Shown in pieces: positions 2,153 to 8,071 of a stretch of DNA of 8,071 bases. Source of the DNA: Candidatus Egaibacter danicus (GTDB lineage: Bacteria; Pseudomonadota; Gammaproteobacteria; Burkholderiales; Burkholderiaceae); NCBI GenBank assembly GCA_011391115.1, contig JAABRC010000076.1:1-8071 (forward strand), written 5' to 3'. The notes below the pieces were generated by a model that worked only from the letters and a program-made list of their open reading frames with translations, was not told the DNA's origin and did no database searches. The position numbers were made by a program, and so were the translations under genes. Position 1 is the first letter of the stretch. Each line of letters opens with the position of its first letter.

Positions 2153-3406
2153 ATGACCACCCCCACCCCACCCAAGCCCCCCCGGCGCGCCGTGCTGCGC
2201 CACCTGCGCCCGTCTGACCTGCGCAGCGCGGCCCAGCTGGCCTCGCAGGCCACGCAGGGCGTGATCCACATCACCGAGGGCGTGCACCAGTCGGTGCTGC
2301 GGCGGCTGGGGTTTTCGGGTGGGGCGGTGCCCGAACAGGCCGGTGGCCTTACCGGGCAGATTTACCGGGGCATTCGCGGCGTGGCGCAGCTGGTGGGCCA
2401 TGGGCTGGACGGTGCTTTGGCTCTGCTGTTGCCGCTGGTGGACGACCCGGCCACGCACCCCGAGGCCTCGCCCGAGCGCGATGCGGTGCTGGCCGCGCTC
2501 AACGGCGTGTTGGGTGACCGGCTACAGCACTTTGGCAACCCGCTGGCCCAGGCCATGGAGCTGCGCCAGGGCGGGCGTGTGCTGCCGCTGGTGCCCGAAC
2601 AACTGCGGGCGCAACTGACCCCACCCAGCACCCACCTGGTGCTGTTGATTCACGGCCTGTGCATGAACGACACGCAATGGCGGCGCAGCGGACACGACCA
2701 CGGCGCATTTTTGGCGCAGGCGCTGGGCTGCACCCCGGTTTACCTGCGCTACAACAGCGGCTTGCACACGTCCACCAACGGCCAAGAACTGGCCTTGCAA
2801 CTGGAGCAGCTGGCGGCGGCCTGGCCGGTGCCGCTGCAGCGCATCACCCTTGTGGGCCACAGCATGGGTGGGCTGGTGGCGCGCTCGGCGGTGCAGGTGG
2901 CGCGCGCAGCCAGCCTGCGCTGGCCCGCGCTGCTGCGCGAGCTGGTATTTTTGGGCACACCGCACCACGGTGCCCCGCTGGAGCGTGCCGGCCACGGCGT
3001 GGACTTGCTGCTGGCTTCGTCGCCCCACACGCTGCCGTTTGCCCAGCTGGGCAAGCTGCGCAGCGCCGGCATTACCGACCTGCGCCACGGCCATGTGCTG
3101 GACGCCGACTGGCACGGCCGCGACCGCTTCGAATCGCCCCAAGACCACCGCACCCCGCTGCCCTTGCCCGAGGGCGTGGCCTGCTTTACCGTGGCCGCCA
3201 CGCTGGCACCCCAGCGCGGTCTGCTGGCCGACCGGCTCTTGGGCGACGGCCTGGTACCACTCAGCAGCGCCCTGGGCCAGCACGACGAACCGGCGCGCCG
3301 CCTGGTGTTTGCCAAGAGCAGCCAGCATGTGGCTTACCGCACCGGCCACCTGGATCTGCTTTCAAGCCCGACGGTGGCTGCGCAGCTGGTGCACTGGTTG
3401 CGTTGA
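2153..3406 (+). CDS. Alpha/beta hydrolase, lipase-like (GHSMGG)
   Basis: A 417-residue protein starting at ATG 2153 (weak ribosome binding site). After an N-terminal region of about 155 residues without a recognised motif, an alpha/beta hydrolase fold begins with strand and oxyanion loop VLLIHGLC (His167-Gly168). The nucleophile elbow is GHSMGG with Ser237, followed by FLGTPHHG typical of PGAP1/lipase-like esterases. The likely acid is Asp365 in LLGDGLVPLSSALG and the likely base is His399 in TGHLDLLSSP. All triad residues are present, so it is probably an active esterase or lipase; the substrate cannot be told. There is no clear signal peptide, so it is probably cytoplasmic or peripheral. 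Its last 78 coding bases are repeated at 7572-7649, where the reading frame continues to a different C-terminus (WLRPAPAPGP instead of WLR). The present stop at 3404-3406 thus appears to have been created by the junction with inserted DNA. Confidence 0.88.
   Translation: MTTPTPPKPPRRAVLRHLRPSDLRSAAQLASQATQGVIHITEGVHQSVLRRLGFSGGAVPEQAGGLTGQIYRGIRGVAQLVGHGLDGALALLLPLVDDPATHPEASPERDAVLAALNGVLGDRLQHFGNPLAQAMELRQGGRVLPLVPEQLRAQLTPPSTHLVLLIHGLCMNDTQWRRSGHDHGAFLAQALGCTPVYLRYNSGLHTSTNGQELALQLEQLAAAWPVPLQRITLVGHSMGGLVARSAVQVARAASLRWPALLRELVFLGTPHHGAPLERAGHGVDLLLASSPHTLPFAQLGKLRSAGITDLRHGHVLDADWHGRDRFESPQDHRTPLPLPEGVACFTVAATLAPQRGLLADRLLGDGLVPLSSALGQHDEPARRLVFAKSSQHVAYRTGHLDLLSSPTVAAQLVHWLR
3325..3402 (+). 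repeat. Upstream copy of a 78-bp direct repeat (hydrolase 3' end)
   Basis: Aligns with 7572-7649 at a fixed offset of 4247 bases. Only 3334, 3392 and 3398 differ (75/78 identical), and 3335-3391 is a perfect 57-base match. It covers the catalytic-His region and the C-terminus of the hydrolase. One difference (3392) changes His to Asp in the other copy. Confidence 0.95.
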
Positions 3407-3585
3407 TCACAGTTGCTCATTTCAAAATGCGCCCTACACGCACGCCATGGGGGCTTTATGCTGGCTACGGGGTACTGTGATGAGGAAACAGCAGCCGTTG
3501 AACAGTCGACTGCAGTCCGTGGGCCAGCGGCCCGACAATCTCAGTCCATACGCCCACGGGCGATTGCACTATCTGGAGCTTATGC
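3407..3585 (+). other. Gap between hydrolase and ATPase remnant, no gene recognised
   Basis: Of note is a reading frame from ATG 3447 to TGA 3594-3596, about 49 residues ending in YAHGRLHYLELMHAD, whose end overlaps the ATPase start. It has no recognised family and no clear ribosome binding site. It could be a short remnant of an upstream partner gene or noise. I see no convincing promoter or terminator here. Confidence 0.3.
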
Positions 3586-3834
3586 ATGCAGATTGAATCC
3601 ATCGAAATCAAAAACTACCGGCTCTTTCGCCACGCCAAGCTGTCGCACATTGCCCGGCTGTGTGTGTTGGTGGGAGCTAACGGCACGGGCAAGTCCACGC
3701 TGTTTGATGTGTTCTTGTTCCTCATGGACGCACTGGGGCTTTGCGGCCGAACCCATTGCGCTGACCTTGCAGTTTCGGCTGGAGATTACGGGCAAAGAGC
3801 GGCTGGTGACTTACCAGCTGCGGCTGGAGCCTGA
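3586..3834 (+). pseudogene. Remnant of AAA-family ATPase gene (N-terminal part only)
   Basis: ATG 3586 has a good ribosome binding site (GGAG at 3575-3578). Residues 1-50 are the start of a RecF/SMC-like AAA ATPase: MQIESIEIKNYRLFRH, then a Walker A motif GANGTGKST (residues 30-38) and LFDVFLFLMDAL. The family sequence then jumps to another frame near 3738-3750, where AEPIALTLQFRLEITG and KERLVTYQLRLEP are readable up to about 3834. Some 25-30 residues expected between these parts are missing, and everything after about 3834 (signature, Walker B and the remaining few hundred residues) is gone. The frame that keeps ATG 3586 ends at 3832-3834 after an unrelated tail. It cannot be an active ATPase. 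Relatives are often single-gene nucleases or DNA-repair or defence ATPases, but which type this was cannot be said. Confidence 0.7.
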
Positions 3835-3957
3835 CATATGTTTTGCACCTATGATGAATTGCCGTTCGTGTCGCGACTTCATCTCAGGCCTTATGCGGCC
3901 GCTTAGGCTATAGCGCAAACAGTCAATCCGCCTTGCTGGTTTTTTACTCGACTTACT

Positions 3958-6900
3958 ATGCTTTCTGTGTTGTTTGTTATTGGCTTCGCATGCCTTTTTG
4001 GACTTCTGTTTGCGTTGGAATCACAAAGTGGTTCTTCGCAATCGAGGCTAAGACCTGCGGGACTCATCTCGTGGCTGCTTGCTGGAAACTGGCCGGCCAA
4101 GGTTGGCGCAAGCCTGCTTATTCTCGGCGTTGGCGCGCTGATGCGCTATGCACTGCTGAACATTGATGTGCCGCCGGAGATCAAGCTGGGAAGTGGCTTT
4201 GTTGCCGCTGCGGCACTGGGCGCAGGGGCTCTGACCCTGAAGTCCCTTCCCGCGCGACGTGCTATTTATCTGGCGCTCAGCGGAACGGCGTTTGCCGTTG
4301 CCTACCTCACGGCTTACGCTGCGTACGACTTTTTTGGTTATCTCAATGAGGTCAACGCGTTGGCGCTGATGGTGCTGGTGTCTTTGGCGACGGGGTGGTT
4401 CGCGGTGTCCGCACGCGCCATGTCTGTGGCCGTTCTGGCCATGGCAGGCGCGTACCTCGCACCCAAATTTGCCATCAACATCCCGGGGCCGGCCGTGCTT
4501 TACGGCTACTACTTGGGTGCCAGCACCATGGTTTTTGCTATGGTGCGGCTGCGCGGCTGGCGACCCTTGATTCACCTGAGCTTTTTATTCACACTGGCCG
4601 GTAGCTTCTTCCTTGGATGGACCCATCAGCTCTACAGGACGGAGCATTACGTCATCATGCAACCAATGCTGTTGGCCCTGGTGGCGCTGCATCTCGCAAT
4701 GCCTTTGGCAGAGCACCGCAGCACGTCTTCGAGCTGGCTAGCCCGTTTTGACTTGGGCTATTTCATCTTGCTGCCGGTGGTAGCCTCGGGTCTGACGTTG
4801 AAGATAGCTCCTCAGGTTTTCCGCGAGGGAGCCATGGGGCTGGGCTTGCTGGCGCTGCTTTGGGCCGCAGCCGCAGTGTTGCTGGTTTTTCTCAAGAGAA
4901 AGCCGGAGGCGACCAAGCACGCATTCGTGGCCGCACTGCTGGTGATGGTCGCGGGCGCTTTGACCGCCACAGATGTTCCATGGCTGATGCTCGGCCTGGT
5001 ACTGTTCGTCATGGGCCTTGCTGTTGCCCCACGACTGGGCTGGCCATTGCGTGCGCAGGAGTTTCTTTGCGGCGCTGCAATGCTGGTTGGTGTCTTGCAT
5101 GTGGTGGCTTCAGTTTTCCAGTCGGTCACAGGTCAGCCGTTTGGCAATGAAGTTTTTGCGCAGCGCGCGTTGGCCAGTGCATTGATGGGGCTGGGCGCAT
5201 GGTTAGCGATCCGGTCGGGGGTGGCTTCAGGGCGCATGCTGGGCGTCATGGCGGCGGCCTGGGGTGGTCTTACGGTGGCGGCAGAGCTTTTGCGTCTGGA
5301 AGTGGACTTCCTGCCACAGTTGGTCTATGCCGCCTTGTTGGCCATTGCACTGGTGTCATCGTTTTCGCAGCGCATCTTGCACACGGCGCCGATCTGGTGC
5401 GCGCTGTTTCTGCTGGCTGTTACGGGAGTAGGGTTCTTTGTCGCCAACGATACGGCTTTCGAGATTGCCGTGGTGTTTGCTGCTGCTACCCCGCTGGTTT
5501 TCCTCTGGATCGGATCAAACGCCGAAGCTGGGCAAGATAATTCGGAAAGCATGGACGAGGATTTGGCTTTTTCGGCGCCATTGGGCTTGCTGCCGCTGGC
5601 ATGGGCCCCCTGGGTGTTTGCCTTGTCCCCGCATTTTCTGACGACTGGCAACTGGCCAGCGATGTCGTTGTTGATGGCCAGCGCTTTCGCTGTGGTGCTC
5701 GCTGCCAAGGCGTGGCGCCCGTCGGGCTCCGTCTGGTACAGCCAGATATGGCCGGCGCACTTTGGCGTGGTTGGTGCAGCCCTTCTTTTTGCTGTCCTGT
5801 TCCATATCGAACGCGGTATGTGGCCGGTTGTGTTTGAAGTGCTGGCGCTGGTTTACATGGCGACATTTGCTGGACTTCTCAAGAATTCGCCCTGGGTTGC
5901 GCTGGCACGGCTGGTGGTGATTGTTGCCGCGTTCCTGGTCGTTCAGGCCATGCTGCTGCGCGCGTTCGGACCGGACCGCATCATGAGTGTGGCAGATATA
6001 TTGGAAATGAAACTGCCCGTAGCCGTCTCATTGTTGTGGGCCAGCTTCGGCGCGCTCCTCGCGTGGTGGGGCTCACACATCAAATCGCGCGGTCAGTGGG
6101 GTGCCGGCGTTGCGCTGTTGGCGCTGACAGCATTCAAGCTGGTGTTCAGGGATTTTGGCGCTCTCGACCAGCTGGGTAACATCCTGGCGCTGATCGGCTC
6201 GGGGGTGTTGTTTCTGGTGGTTGCATGGTTTGCCCCTGTTCCTGCTGCGTCTGCGCAATCGCAACCGGAAGCTCGGCGGAAAGCTAACCCCGAAACGACT
6301 GACAGCGAAGCCCCGTCTCGGCCTTCCGACAAAGACTATGCGCACACACAACCGAGCCCGCTGAAGACCGGACCCGTGGTCGGGAATCGGTTTGACAACG
6401 CTTCGGTGATCACGGCCGCTTCTGCTTTTGGCGTTCCGGCCAATCCCGCCTCTGTGCTGACAGGGGCGTCCGGTGCGCAACGCACCGTTAGCCGGCCTGT
6501 GCCTAGACCCAAGGCGGTTGCACCGGAGGGCGGATTTAACTGGTTGCTGGTATTGTTGATTGGATTGCCTTTGTGTATGGCCATCCTCGGCCAGCAATGG
6601 CTGACTCACCGCCATAGTGATACGTCAGATCCTTCCGCCGTCGAGGCTGCTAGGGAGAAAGTGGCGCCGAAATACCTCAGTCCGCCAGTCATGGTTGCGG
6701 ATTCTGGCCCGCTGCCTGCTGTCAACCCGGGCAAGGTGACCGATGCCTGCACGGCGTTTTTAGCTCAGTTGCCGGCAGACTACATCCTCTACGCCGGTGG
6801 CGCATACAGCGGAAGCAAGCTGAACTTCCAGATCGACCAATCCGGCCAGCAGGCCACGCGCTTCGACGTCTTCGTGAATGAACCTGGCAAGAATGTGGTG

Positions 6901-7566
6901 CTGGCACTTGGCGCTTACGAGCCGTCGGTGTGGAATGTTCGCTGGTCGCCTGAAACTGTTGTGGCGGGTGTTTTTGTGTCGGGCTATCACCGGCAAGCCC
7001 TGGCAGGCCTGGGCAGCGAAGTACCGGTTCTCAACGCAAGCTACGACAACCCGTCGGGCTGCGGGTATTTCTACCTTGATCGAAATGATGTGGCCAAAGC
7101 CGACGCCATTGTGAGGAAGGTGTTTGGCCGGTCCGCACATACCTATTTCGTCGCTACGGGCGGTCAGGTCACATTTGGCGATCAGGCTGCTTCCTACACC
7201 CAAAGCGCGCGGCCAACCGTGGAAAGCCTCCGCGACCCGAATACGCCGCTGGCCGGGCAGGCCGGCATTGAGCAATTGCTTCGCGAGGGCAAACTGCGCA
7301 TCGCGACGCATCGCGACGTTTCTGAGTGGCAGGCCGCAGTCAGCAGGTCTCAAAACCTGCCCCAATTGAATGTGATCGGTGCGGGTTCGCAGAGATCTAT
7401 TGGGGACATATCGGCCGGCAATACGTATGTCGTCATCAAGCCCATGCGTTATCCTGCGGGGCTGTATGGTGCGCACTCAGTCACCTTTCTCGTGGAGGCG
7501 GGTGTGTCCAAGCCTGAGGGCAACCCGGGGCATTCGCGGGTGTATGACATGAATCAGTTTCGATAG
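3958..7566 (+). CDS. DUF2339-type polytopic membrane protein fused to a soluble C-terminal domain
   Basis: A 1202-residue protein. ATG 3958 is the first usable start after an in-frame TAG at 3904; no clear ribosome binding site is visible. Residues 2-20 form a membrane helix. Residues about 38-757 are a long series of hydrophobic helices with the DUF2339 (COG5373) pattern: WLLAGNWPAKVG, LMRYALLN, AYLTAYAAYDFFGYL, GYYLGASTMVFA and LIHLSFLFTLAGSF. The usual coiled-coil stretch between the first helix and WLLAGN is very short here (about 17 residues). Residues 758-858 are a Pro/Ser/Ala-rich, probably disordered linker. Residues about 860-880 are another membrane helix. Residues about 927-1190 form a soluble domain that I do not recognise, with the segment GAYEPSVWNVRW (985-996) followed by VSGYHRQALAGL. 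Its only two cysteines, 931 and 1035, could form a disulfide, which fits a periplasmic location. No function is established for DUF2339; a cell-envelope role is only a guess. The stop abuts the direct repeat. Confidence 0.85.
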   Translation: MLSVLFVIGFACLFGLLFALESQSGSSQSRLRPAGLISWLLAGNWPAKVGASLLILGVGALMRYALLNIDVPPEIKLGSGFVAAAALGAGALTLKSLPARRAIYLALSGTAFAVAYLTAYAAYDFFGYLNEVNALALMVLVSLATGWFAVSARAMSVAVLAMAGAYLAPKFAINIPGPAVLYGYYLGASTMVFAMVRLRGWRPLIHLSFLFTLAGSFFLGWTHQLYRTEHYVIMQPMLLALVALHLAMPLAEHRSTSSSWLARFDLGYFILLPVVASGLTLKIAPQVFREGAMGLGLLALLWAAAAVLLVFLKRKPEATKHAFVAALLVMVAGALTATDVPWLMLGLVLFVMGLAVAPRLGWPLRAQEFLCGAAMLVGVLHVVASVFQSVTGQPFGNEVFAQRALASALMGLGAWLAIRSGVASGRMLGVMAAAWGGLTVAAELLRLEVDFLPQLVYAALLAIALVSSFSQRILHTAPIWCALFLLAVTGVGFFVANDTAFEIAVVFAAATPLVFLWIGSNAEAGQDNSESMDEDLAFSAPLGLLPLAWAPWVFALSPHFLTTGNWPAMSLLMASAFAVVLAAKAWRPSGSVWYSQIWPAHFGVVGAALLFAVLFHIERGMWPVVFEVLALVYMATFAGLLKNSPWVALARLVVIVAAFLVVQAMLLRAFGPDRIMSVADILEMKLPVAVSLLWASFGALLAWWGSHIKSRGQWGAGVALLALTAFKLVFRDFGALDQLGNILALIGSGVLFLVVAWFAPVPAASAQSQPEARRKANPETTDSEAPSRPSDKDYAHTQPSPLKTGPVVGNRFDNASVITAASAFGVPANPASVLTGASGAQRTVSRPVPRPKAVAPEGGFNWLLVLLIGLPLCMAILGQQWLTHRHSDTSDPSAVEAAREKVAPKYLSPPVMVADSGPLPAVNPGKVTDACTAFLAQLPADYILYAGGAYSGSKLNFQIDQSGQQATRFDVFVNEPGKNVVLALGAYEPSVWNVRWSPETVVAGVFVSGYHRQALAGLGSEVPVLNASYDNPSGCGYFYLDRNDVAKADAIVRKVFGRSAHTYFVATGGQVTFGDQAASYTQSARPTVESLRDPNTPLAGQAGIEQLLREGKLRIATHRDVSEWQAAVSRSQNLPQLNVIGAGSQRSIGDISAGNTYVVIKPMRYPAGLYGAHSVTFLVEAGVSKPEGNPGHSRVYDMNQFR

Positions 7567-7571
7567 CCAAC

Positions 7572-7649
7572 GCATGTGGCCTACCGCACCGGCCACCTGG
7601 ATCTGCTTTCAAGCCCGACGGTGGCTGCGCAGCTGGTGGACTGGCTGCG
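7572..7649 (+). repeat. Downstream copy of the 78-bp direct repeat
   Basis: Matches 3325-3402 with three differences (7581, 7639, 7645). It begins 5 bases after the stop codon of the DUF2339 fusion gene. A few further bases (AGCCA) match just before it if a 2-base gap is allowed, so the left edge of the duplication may lie inside the last codons of the neighbouring gene. Confidence 0.95.
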
Positions 7650-7674
7650 CCCGGCGCCCGCCCCCGGGCCTTGA
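7572..7674 (+). pseudogene. Orphan C-terminal fragment of the alpha/beta hydrolase gene
   Basis: Read in the hydrolase frame, this stretch encodes HVAYRTGHLDLLSSPTVAAQ, then LVDWLRPAPAPGP and TGA at 7672-7674. It has no start codon or nucleophile region and cannot be a gene on its own. It reads as the original end of the hydrolase gene. Joining the upstream gene to this end would give a 424-residue protein, seven residues longer than the present one. Its stop codon overlaps the sigma-32-like -35 box of htpG, which supports the idea that this is the ancestral junction. Confidence 0.85.
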
Positions 7675-7697
7675 AAATCCCCGCGCCGTCCCTACCT
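7670..7697 (+). promoter_or_regulatory. Probable heat-shock (sigma-32) promoter of htpG
   Basis: CTTGAAA at 7670-7676 is a perfect match to the sigma-32 -35 consensus. After a 13-base spacer, CCCTACCT (7690-7697) matches the CCCCATTT -10 consensus at 5 of 8 positions. HtpG is a known heat-shock regulon member in proteobacteria, and the site lies about 65-90 bases before its start codon. The -10 box is weak, so the assignment rests mainly on the -35 box and the context. Confidence 0.5.
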
Positions 7698-7712
7698 CAC
7701 GCATTGCGTGAT

Positions 7713-7743
7713 CGCTCCCGCCGGAGCGCGCCTCTGTTTTTTT
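7713..7743 (+). other. Hairpin followed by a T-run upstream of htpG
   Basis: CGCTCC (7713-7718) pairs with GGAGCG (7723-7728) around a 4-base loop, and seven T follow at 7737-7743. The T-run begins 8 bases after the stem, too far for a standard intrinsic terminator. If the promoter above is real, the hairpin lies in the htpG 5' leader, so it may be a leader structure or a weak terminator for read-through from the hydrolase. Confidence 0.35.
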
Positions 7744-7759
7744 AAACCCCACAAGATCC

Positions 7760-8071
7760 ATGAGCAAACAAACCCTGTCCTTCCAGGCCGAAGTGTCGCA
7801 ACTGCTGCACCTCGTCACCCATTCGCTGTATTCCAACCCCGACATTTTTTTGCGCGAGCTGGTGTCCAACGCGTCGGACGCCTGCGACAAGCTGCGTTTT
7901 GAAGGCCTGAACAACGCCGCGCTGTTTGAAGACGCGCCCAATCTGGACGTGCGCGTGGCCTTTGACAAAGACGCCAAGACTCTCACCATCACCGACAACG
8001 GCATCGGCATGAGCTTGGCCGAGGCGGTGGAGCACTTGGGCACCATTGCCAAGAGCGGCACCAAAGACTTC
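7760..8071 (+). CDS. htpG: Molecular chaperone HtpG (Hsp90), 3' end outside window
   Basis: ATG 7760 opens a frame that runs without a stop to the end of the window, giving the first 104 residues of a protein normally about 630-650 long. It is the start of the GHKL ATPase domain of bacterial Hsp90: [19 protein letters not shown], then [18 protein letters not shown] with Glu33 (general base for ATP hydrolysis), Asn37 (magnesium) and Asp40, then ITDNGIGM with Asp79, which contacts the adenine, and [12 protein letters not shown], the start of the ATP lid. HtpG is a cytoplasmic ATP-dependent chaperone induced by heat. The ribosome binding site is weak. All key residues in the visible part are present, so the gene seems intact and marks the conserved right flank of the inserted segment. 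Confidence 0.97.

Follow-up and report, generated by a model that had tools for sequence, protein, structure and literature searches.

In the window, by which we mean the whole stretch of 8,071 nucleotides of Candidatus Egaibacter danicus DNA analysed here, an alpha/beta hydrolase gene is separated from htpG by a 4.2-kb foreign insert, which has the 3' end of the hydrolase gene on both of its sides. This arrangement appears to be a gene-transfer record of an ordinary kind, and it comes from one assembled contig only. The features concerned, together with the basis on which each of them was recognized, are the following.

2153 to 3406, forward strand: alpha/beta hydrolase gene, 417 aa, with its WLR-stop end in the upstream repeat copy (ORF; Pfam PGAP1 and DUF676)
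3325 to 3402, forward strand: upstream repeat copy, the functional hydrolase 3' end (repeat comparison)
3403 to 7571, forward strand: inserted segment (absent from the 34 short-gap loci of 52; lower GC)
3407 to 3585, forward strand: left flank of the segment, with no recognized gene (sequence search)
3586 to 3834, forward strand: N-terminal stump of an ATPase gene of the AAA_15 family (Pfam AAA_15; relatives of about 400 aa)
3958 to 7566, forward strand: DUF2339 membrane protein gene, intact, 1,202 aa, with a C-terminal domain (ORF; Pfam DUF2339; relatives)
7572 to 7649, forward strand: downstream repeat copy, the native hydrolase 3' end, now separated (repeat and frame of the joined flanks)
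7650 to 7674, forward strand: native hydrolase tail (RPAPAPGP) and stop (reading frame; relatives)
7675 to 7759, forward strand: native spacer preceding htpG (colinear with relatives)
7760 to 8071, forward strand: first 104 codons of htpG (ORF; a frame 77.9 to 99% identical stands behind the hydrolase in 44 of 52 loci)

The name htpG is our reading of a Pfam HATPase_c match and of the sequence, just as rsuA, used below for the gene whose end opens the window, is a reading of a PseudoU_synth_2 match and of the sequence.

A first-pass annotation of this DNA had described a direct repeat of 78 bp, with 75 identical positions and 57 perfect bases, and a repeat search over the whole window recovered it at 3325 to 3402 and 7572 to 7649 with 96% identity, the two copies being spaced 4247 apart. 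Since the mismatches between the copies sit only at repeat positions 10, 68 and 74, the perfect run measures 57 bp, a length far beyond chance expectation for 8 kb, and all three differences fall outside this core. The copies, alike at 75 of 78 positions, agree with the gene ends of the 50 aligned relatives at no more than 65 of 78. Moreover, conservation among relatives is fair in the interior of the repeat, where 25 bp agree at 88% on average in 50 of the 52 hydrolase loci examined.

The upstream copy has a stop as its next codon, and since it supplies a full 3' end, the hydrolase remained usable. Within the repeat is encoded the motif RTGHLDLLSS, common to most of the listed hydrolase relatives, the His of which we take, from alpha/beta hydrolases in general, to be probably the catalytic residue. 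An insertion that did not re-supply this His would cost the cell the enzyme, and selection would therefore keep the duplicated end. A shared hydrolase end with WLR as the conserved C terminus, which had been named as a circumstance speaking against insertion, was encountered to a limited extent: 8 of the 119 listed relatives naturally end in W-L-R or W-L-H, one of them being 88% identical to the window protein, yet the commonest C terminus (70 of the 119 listed) runs 8 residues past W-L.

The state of the site in relatives was derived from a scan of hydrolase loci with one genome per species, which gave 52 loci. The distance from the hydrolase stop to the htpG start is 78 to 200 bp in 34 of them, in agreement with the earlier idea that the segment was inserted; 0.6 to 5.5 kb of other DNA occupies the interval in 10 loci, and htpG lies outside the covered stretch of sequence in 8. 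No relatives of the ATPase stump or the DUF2339 protein are encoded in any of the 52 loci, and an ancestral ATPase-DUF2339 block, the other circumstance named against insertion, was likewise not found between hydrolase and htpG in any of them. In the close relatives L001, L002 and L007, the gaps amount to 83, 88 and 86 bp, respectively, and the hydrolases end WLRP..., as does the downstream copy of the window, which stays in the hydrolase frame up to the TGA at 7672 to 7674.

Joining the window flanks within the perfect core gave the 424-aa frame that had been anticipated for the restored hydrolase; of the six relatives that scored best in the protein search, five are of this length and one has 417 aa. 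When aligned with empty-site loci, the joined flanks proved colinear with L002, with 448 of 518 columns identical, and they were also aligned with L007 (433/516), L010 (422/515), L001 (416/515) and L009 (415/515). Furthermore, a 129-bp query composed of the downstream copy and the spacer aligned over nearly its full length, at one place each, in genomes G009, G007, G002, G010, G001 and G014. Given this colinearity and these single-place matches, the downstream copy is native and the segment an insertion, as the first-pass annotation had supposed in taking that copy for the original gene end. As judged from these alignments, the ancestral hydrolase-htpG junction is an empty one, and the native gene end is the downstream copy.

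The inserted segment is foreign in composition and content. The GC fraction, calculated in 400-base windows, drops from 0.68 to 0.73 in the hydrolase to 0.53 to 0.61 in the segment, the exact ends of which are uncertain, because the crossover may fall anywhere in the 57-bp core. The ATPase gene is broken, about three quarters of it being missing: with respect to relatives of about 400 aa, some 150 bp are kept at 75 to 81% identity, then 59 bp are absent, a deletion that shifts the frame, and past this point the stump matches over 47 to 86 bp, the homology being gone by about 3834. The best profile for the stump in the defence library is HEC-01B, and since the match spans 51 residues only, a defence role of the ATPase is a guess.

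The DUF2339 gene, on the other side of the stump, is intact. The first-pass annotation had called it a fusion gene; a large gene is indeed present, but the fusion does not stem from the insertion, given that six full-length relatives end alike. These relatives, among which Polaromonas sp. YR568 is the closest named one, measure 1,205 to 1,244 aa and align over 97 to 100% at 69 to 73% identity, with the same end point. The gene was not found in any of 17 Hydrogenophaga-genus genomes, namely, those behind the closest hydrolase loci (the genus of L002). With this query, matches at an E value of 0.001 or better were obtained in 61 of 399 family genomes, the identity never exceeding 59%; at the threshold of 1e-60, matches of 32 to 52% identity came from 5 of 399 order genomes. 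Around the loci of nine DUF2339 relatives, where the ORFs were judged by eye, no mobile genes were recognized. The C-terminal part of the protein (window about 6720 to 7566), for which the family search returned no Pfam name, also occurs as separate shorter proteins of about 330 to 440 aa in L053, L055, L056, L090, L091 and L092.

To account for this structure, we prefer general recombination in the hydrolase end combined with a non-homologous join behind DUF2339, an explanation to which we give slightly less than an even chance. Starting from an ancestor in which the hydrolase-htpG junction was empty, the incoming DNA would have derived from a related strain and would have carried a hydrolase 3' end (WLR-stop), the ATPase stump and the DUF2339 gene. 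On the left side, a homologous crossover would have occurred within the hydrolase end, whereas the right-hand join, immediately past DUF2339 and 78 bp ahead of the recipient's own gene end, would have been made without long homology, and it is for this reason that the gene end would now be twofold. No recombinase would be involved. Copies that are closer to each other than to relatives, with differences lying outside the core, are what one crossover between near-identical alleles would leave, an outcome to which either general recombination or a recombinase-dependent element could lead.

A homologous join on one side is represented by the perfect core and by the near identity of the copies as a whole. 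We also counted in favour of general recombination the variable cargo that other species carry between hydrolase and htpG without a duplicated end, the existence of WLR-ending hydrolases (8 of 119 listed), the finding of DUF2339 in none of the 17 genus genomes as against 61 of 399 family genomes, and the AGCCA shared at the right join, where the DUF2339 stop lies 5 bp ahead of the downstream repeat copy; this pentanucleotide is two bases out of register and short enough for chance. Among the 52 hydrolase loci, none was found in which a hydrolase end is followed by the ATPase and DUF2339 genes, as would be expected of a donor. Against general recombination stand the single contig and the left flank, unmatched in 349 family genomes in a search that had no positive control and so shows little, as well as the position of the repeat exactly at the gene 3' end, with the stop in the next codon, which is also what an attachment site would lead one to expect. 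Homology-facilitated illegitimate recombination after DNA uptake is on record in published cases from other bacteria. By that route, a homologous join paired with one of scant or absent homology would give the present structure without a recombinase; the difference lies in the published cases coming from elsewhere in the bacteria and in the donor, which was not found here. Tandem duplication via illegitimate recombination is described in passages of PMC11111574, which are not evidence for this case.

The main rival is a decayed recombinase-dependent island, that is, an element integrated by a tyrosine recombinase in the hydrolase 3' end, the attachment site of which brought a replacement gene end and the recombination genes of which were lost or supplied in trans; we consider it unlikely, albeit a serious contender. 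According to passages of PMC5704250, such elements reside in 3' ends of protein genes with repeats of 8 to 60 bp, a range within which the 57-bp core falls, and, as stated in part of PMC7563491, CIMEs (decayed ICEs or IMEs) retain attL and attR without recombination genes. What the segment shares with CIMEs, as portrayed in these passages of the two papers, is that direct repeats at the 3' end of a gene enclose cargo devoid of recombination genes, the target gene being whole; in addition, the stop directly follows the repeat. The copies are placed as attL and attR would be, with one of them completing the target gene, so that they make candidate att sites, and the fair conservation of the inner repeat part among relatives would also suit an attachment site. 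On the other hand, the ORFs scanned in the segment, from both strands, revealed no recombinase family, nor did they contain the integrase and relaxase genes of a complete IME or ICE. When 13 candidate gene-end matches were scored per genome in 67 genus genomes, with a strong match defined by an E value of 2.8e-7 or better, one strong match was present in 38, weaker ones only in 14 and none in 15, whereas two strong matches occurred in none. Likewise, no duplicated gene end was detected at 12 loci with a longer gap or in the self-comparison of the 52 loci, and these three sets gave no sign of an element with a recombinase using this site, from which the segment could descend. The case also differs from CIMEs in that neither a related complete element nor a second occupant of the site was found, and in a host gene that is neither a tRNA nor a ribosomal protein gene. 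Of the three origins put forward in the first-pass annotation, then, the integrative element agrees with the geometry, yet no recombinase family, second gene end in relatives or known counterpart was found for it; recombination involving an incoming hydrolase allele is at least as good a fit.

Since the evidence comes from one contig, an assembly or library chimera, in which the segment and the hydrolase-htpG flanks would derive from different places or strains, keeps a small probability. The window is the whole contig, the hydrolase cluster has one member, and the two members of the DUF2339 cluster are both on one contig; against this, no damage is seen in either flank or in the DUF2339 gene, and the few bases shared at the right join would be too little for an overlap-based false join. 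It is somewhat more improbable that the hydrolase 3' end serves as an attachment site for recombinase-less cargo blocks moved by a trans-acting enzyme, a situation in which DUF2339 and defence-gene cargo would circulate among near-identical Hydrogenophaga-like strains.

Still less probable is a long target-site duplication, in which captured DNA would have become enclosed in a staggered break of the hydrolase end, with fill-in on either side of it. It would need no donor hydrolase, and the cargo does have deletions of its own (the 59 bp in the ATPase gene), but the differences outside the core and the upstream stop at the next codon are better explained by a crossover with a second allele. Target duplications made by transposons are far shorter than 78 bp. 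The 40-nt ends of the segment share an inverted match of at most 5 bp, and neither the terminal inverted repeats (none of at least 16 nt at the ends) nor the short duplication of a DDE transposon was seen.

Other origins were discarded: the segment is unmatched in plasmids, the DUF2339 protein hitting one weak plasmid record (32.5% identity, 16% of the query); its left part is unmatched in phages, viral contigs yielded nothing for two junction patterns or for the DUF2339 protein, and the ATPase stump alone, of five proteins scanned, matched PHROGs; and no tRNA or structured RNA was found in the window as a target. The left flank, which by eye might be a remnant of a donor htpG promoter, was compared in 11 local alignments with 300 letter shuffles each; the score was attained by a fraction of 0.027 of the shuffles in the best case (L042) and of 0.36 for the window's own promoter, and the idea was dropped. 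The 192-bp spacers of L003 (11279 to 11470) and L006 (11258 to 11449), which by eye contain a short palindromic repeat, were rejected as kin of the insert: the L006 gene, like the upstream copy of the window, stops early at WLR, with TGATC following, but the remaining spacer differs.

The hydrolase-htpG interval is a variable spot without visible recombinases, and different genes occupy it in L004, L005, L008, L012, L014, L024, L029, L031, L035, L039 and L042. Nine proteins of the interval cargo were chosen for naming by Pfam: a TonB receptor and a sensor kinase in L004, a LysR regulator and a zinc-type dehydrogenase in L005, an HlyD-type secretion protein in L014, a sodium:alanine symporter in L029, an HDOD protein in L030, DHHA1 (sub-threshold) in L039 and DUF1328 in L047. 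In L012 and L014, very long secreted-type proteins adjoin HlyD-type genes.

Upstream of the hydrolase, the end of the rsuA-type pseudouridine synthase gene is followed by a 1.7-kb patch of broken defence-like genes (443 to 2080), a second acquired patch, located between rsuA and the hydrolase, an interval that measures 87 to 122 bp between matched ends in L001, L002 and L007. No repeat flanking this patch was found by the repeat search of the window. It comprises a HigA-antitoxin-like remnant (TIGR02607, E value of 3e-4, below the cut-off) and, in different frames, an AlbA_2 part (706 to 1044) and a HATPase_c_4/Fic-like C-terminal part (1037 to 2080), apparently belonging to one broken gene, inside which TGEV repeats are encoded by about five tandem copies of a 12-bp unit (1797 to 1861). 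A 31-residue piece 84% identical to the HigA-like remnant is present in the same interval of another Hydrogenophaga (L030, 9558 to 9650), and the remnant is therefore not unique to the window.

The insert is a readable acquisition scar, marked by a gene end in duplicate, by an intact gene of foreign origin and by relatives in which the site is empty. Should both joins hold in reads, it could show how cargo gets into an intergenic site of variable content with no recombinase at work. In addition, it places on record, in a Hydrogenophaga-like host whose genus lacked DUF2339 in all 17 genomes searched, a gene of the Polaromonas type, which resembles its six relatives in identity, length and C-terminal end and differs from them in sitting between hydrolase and htpG.
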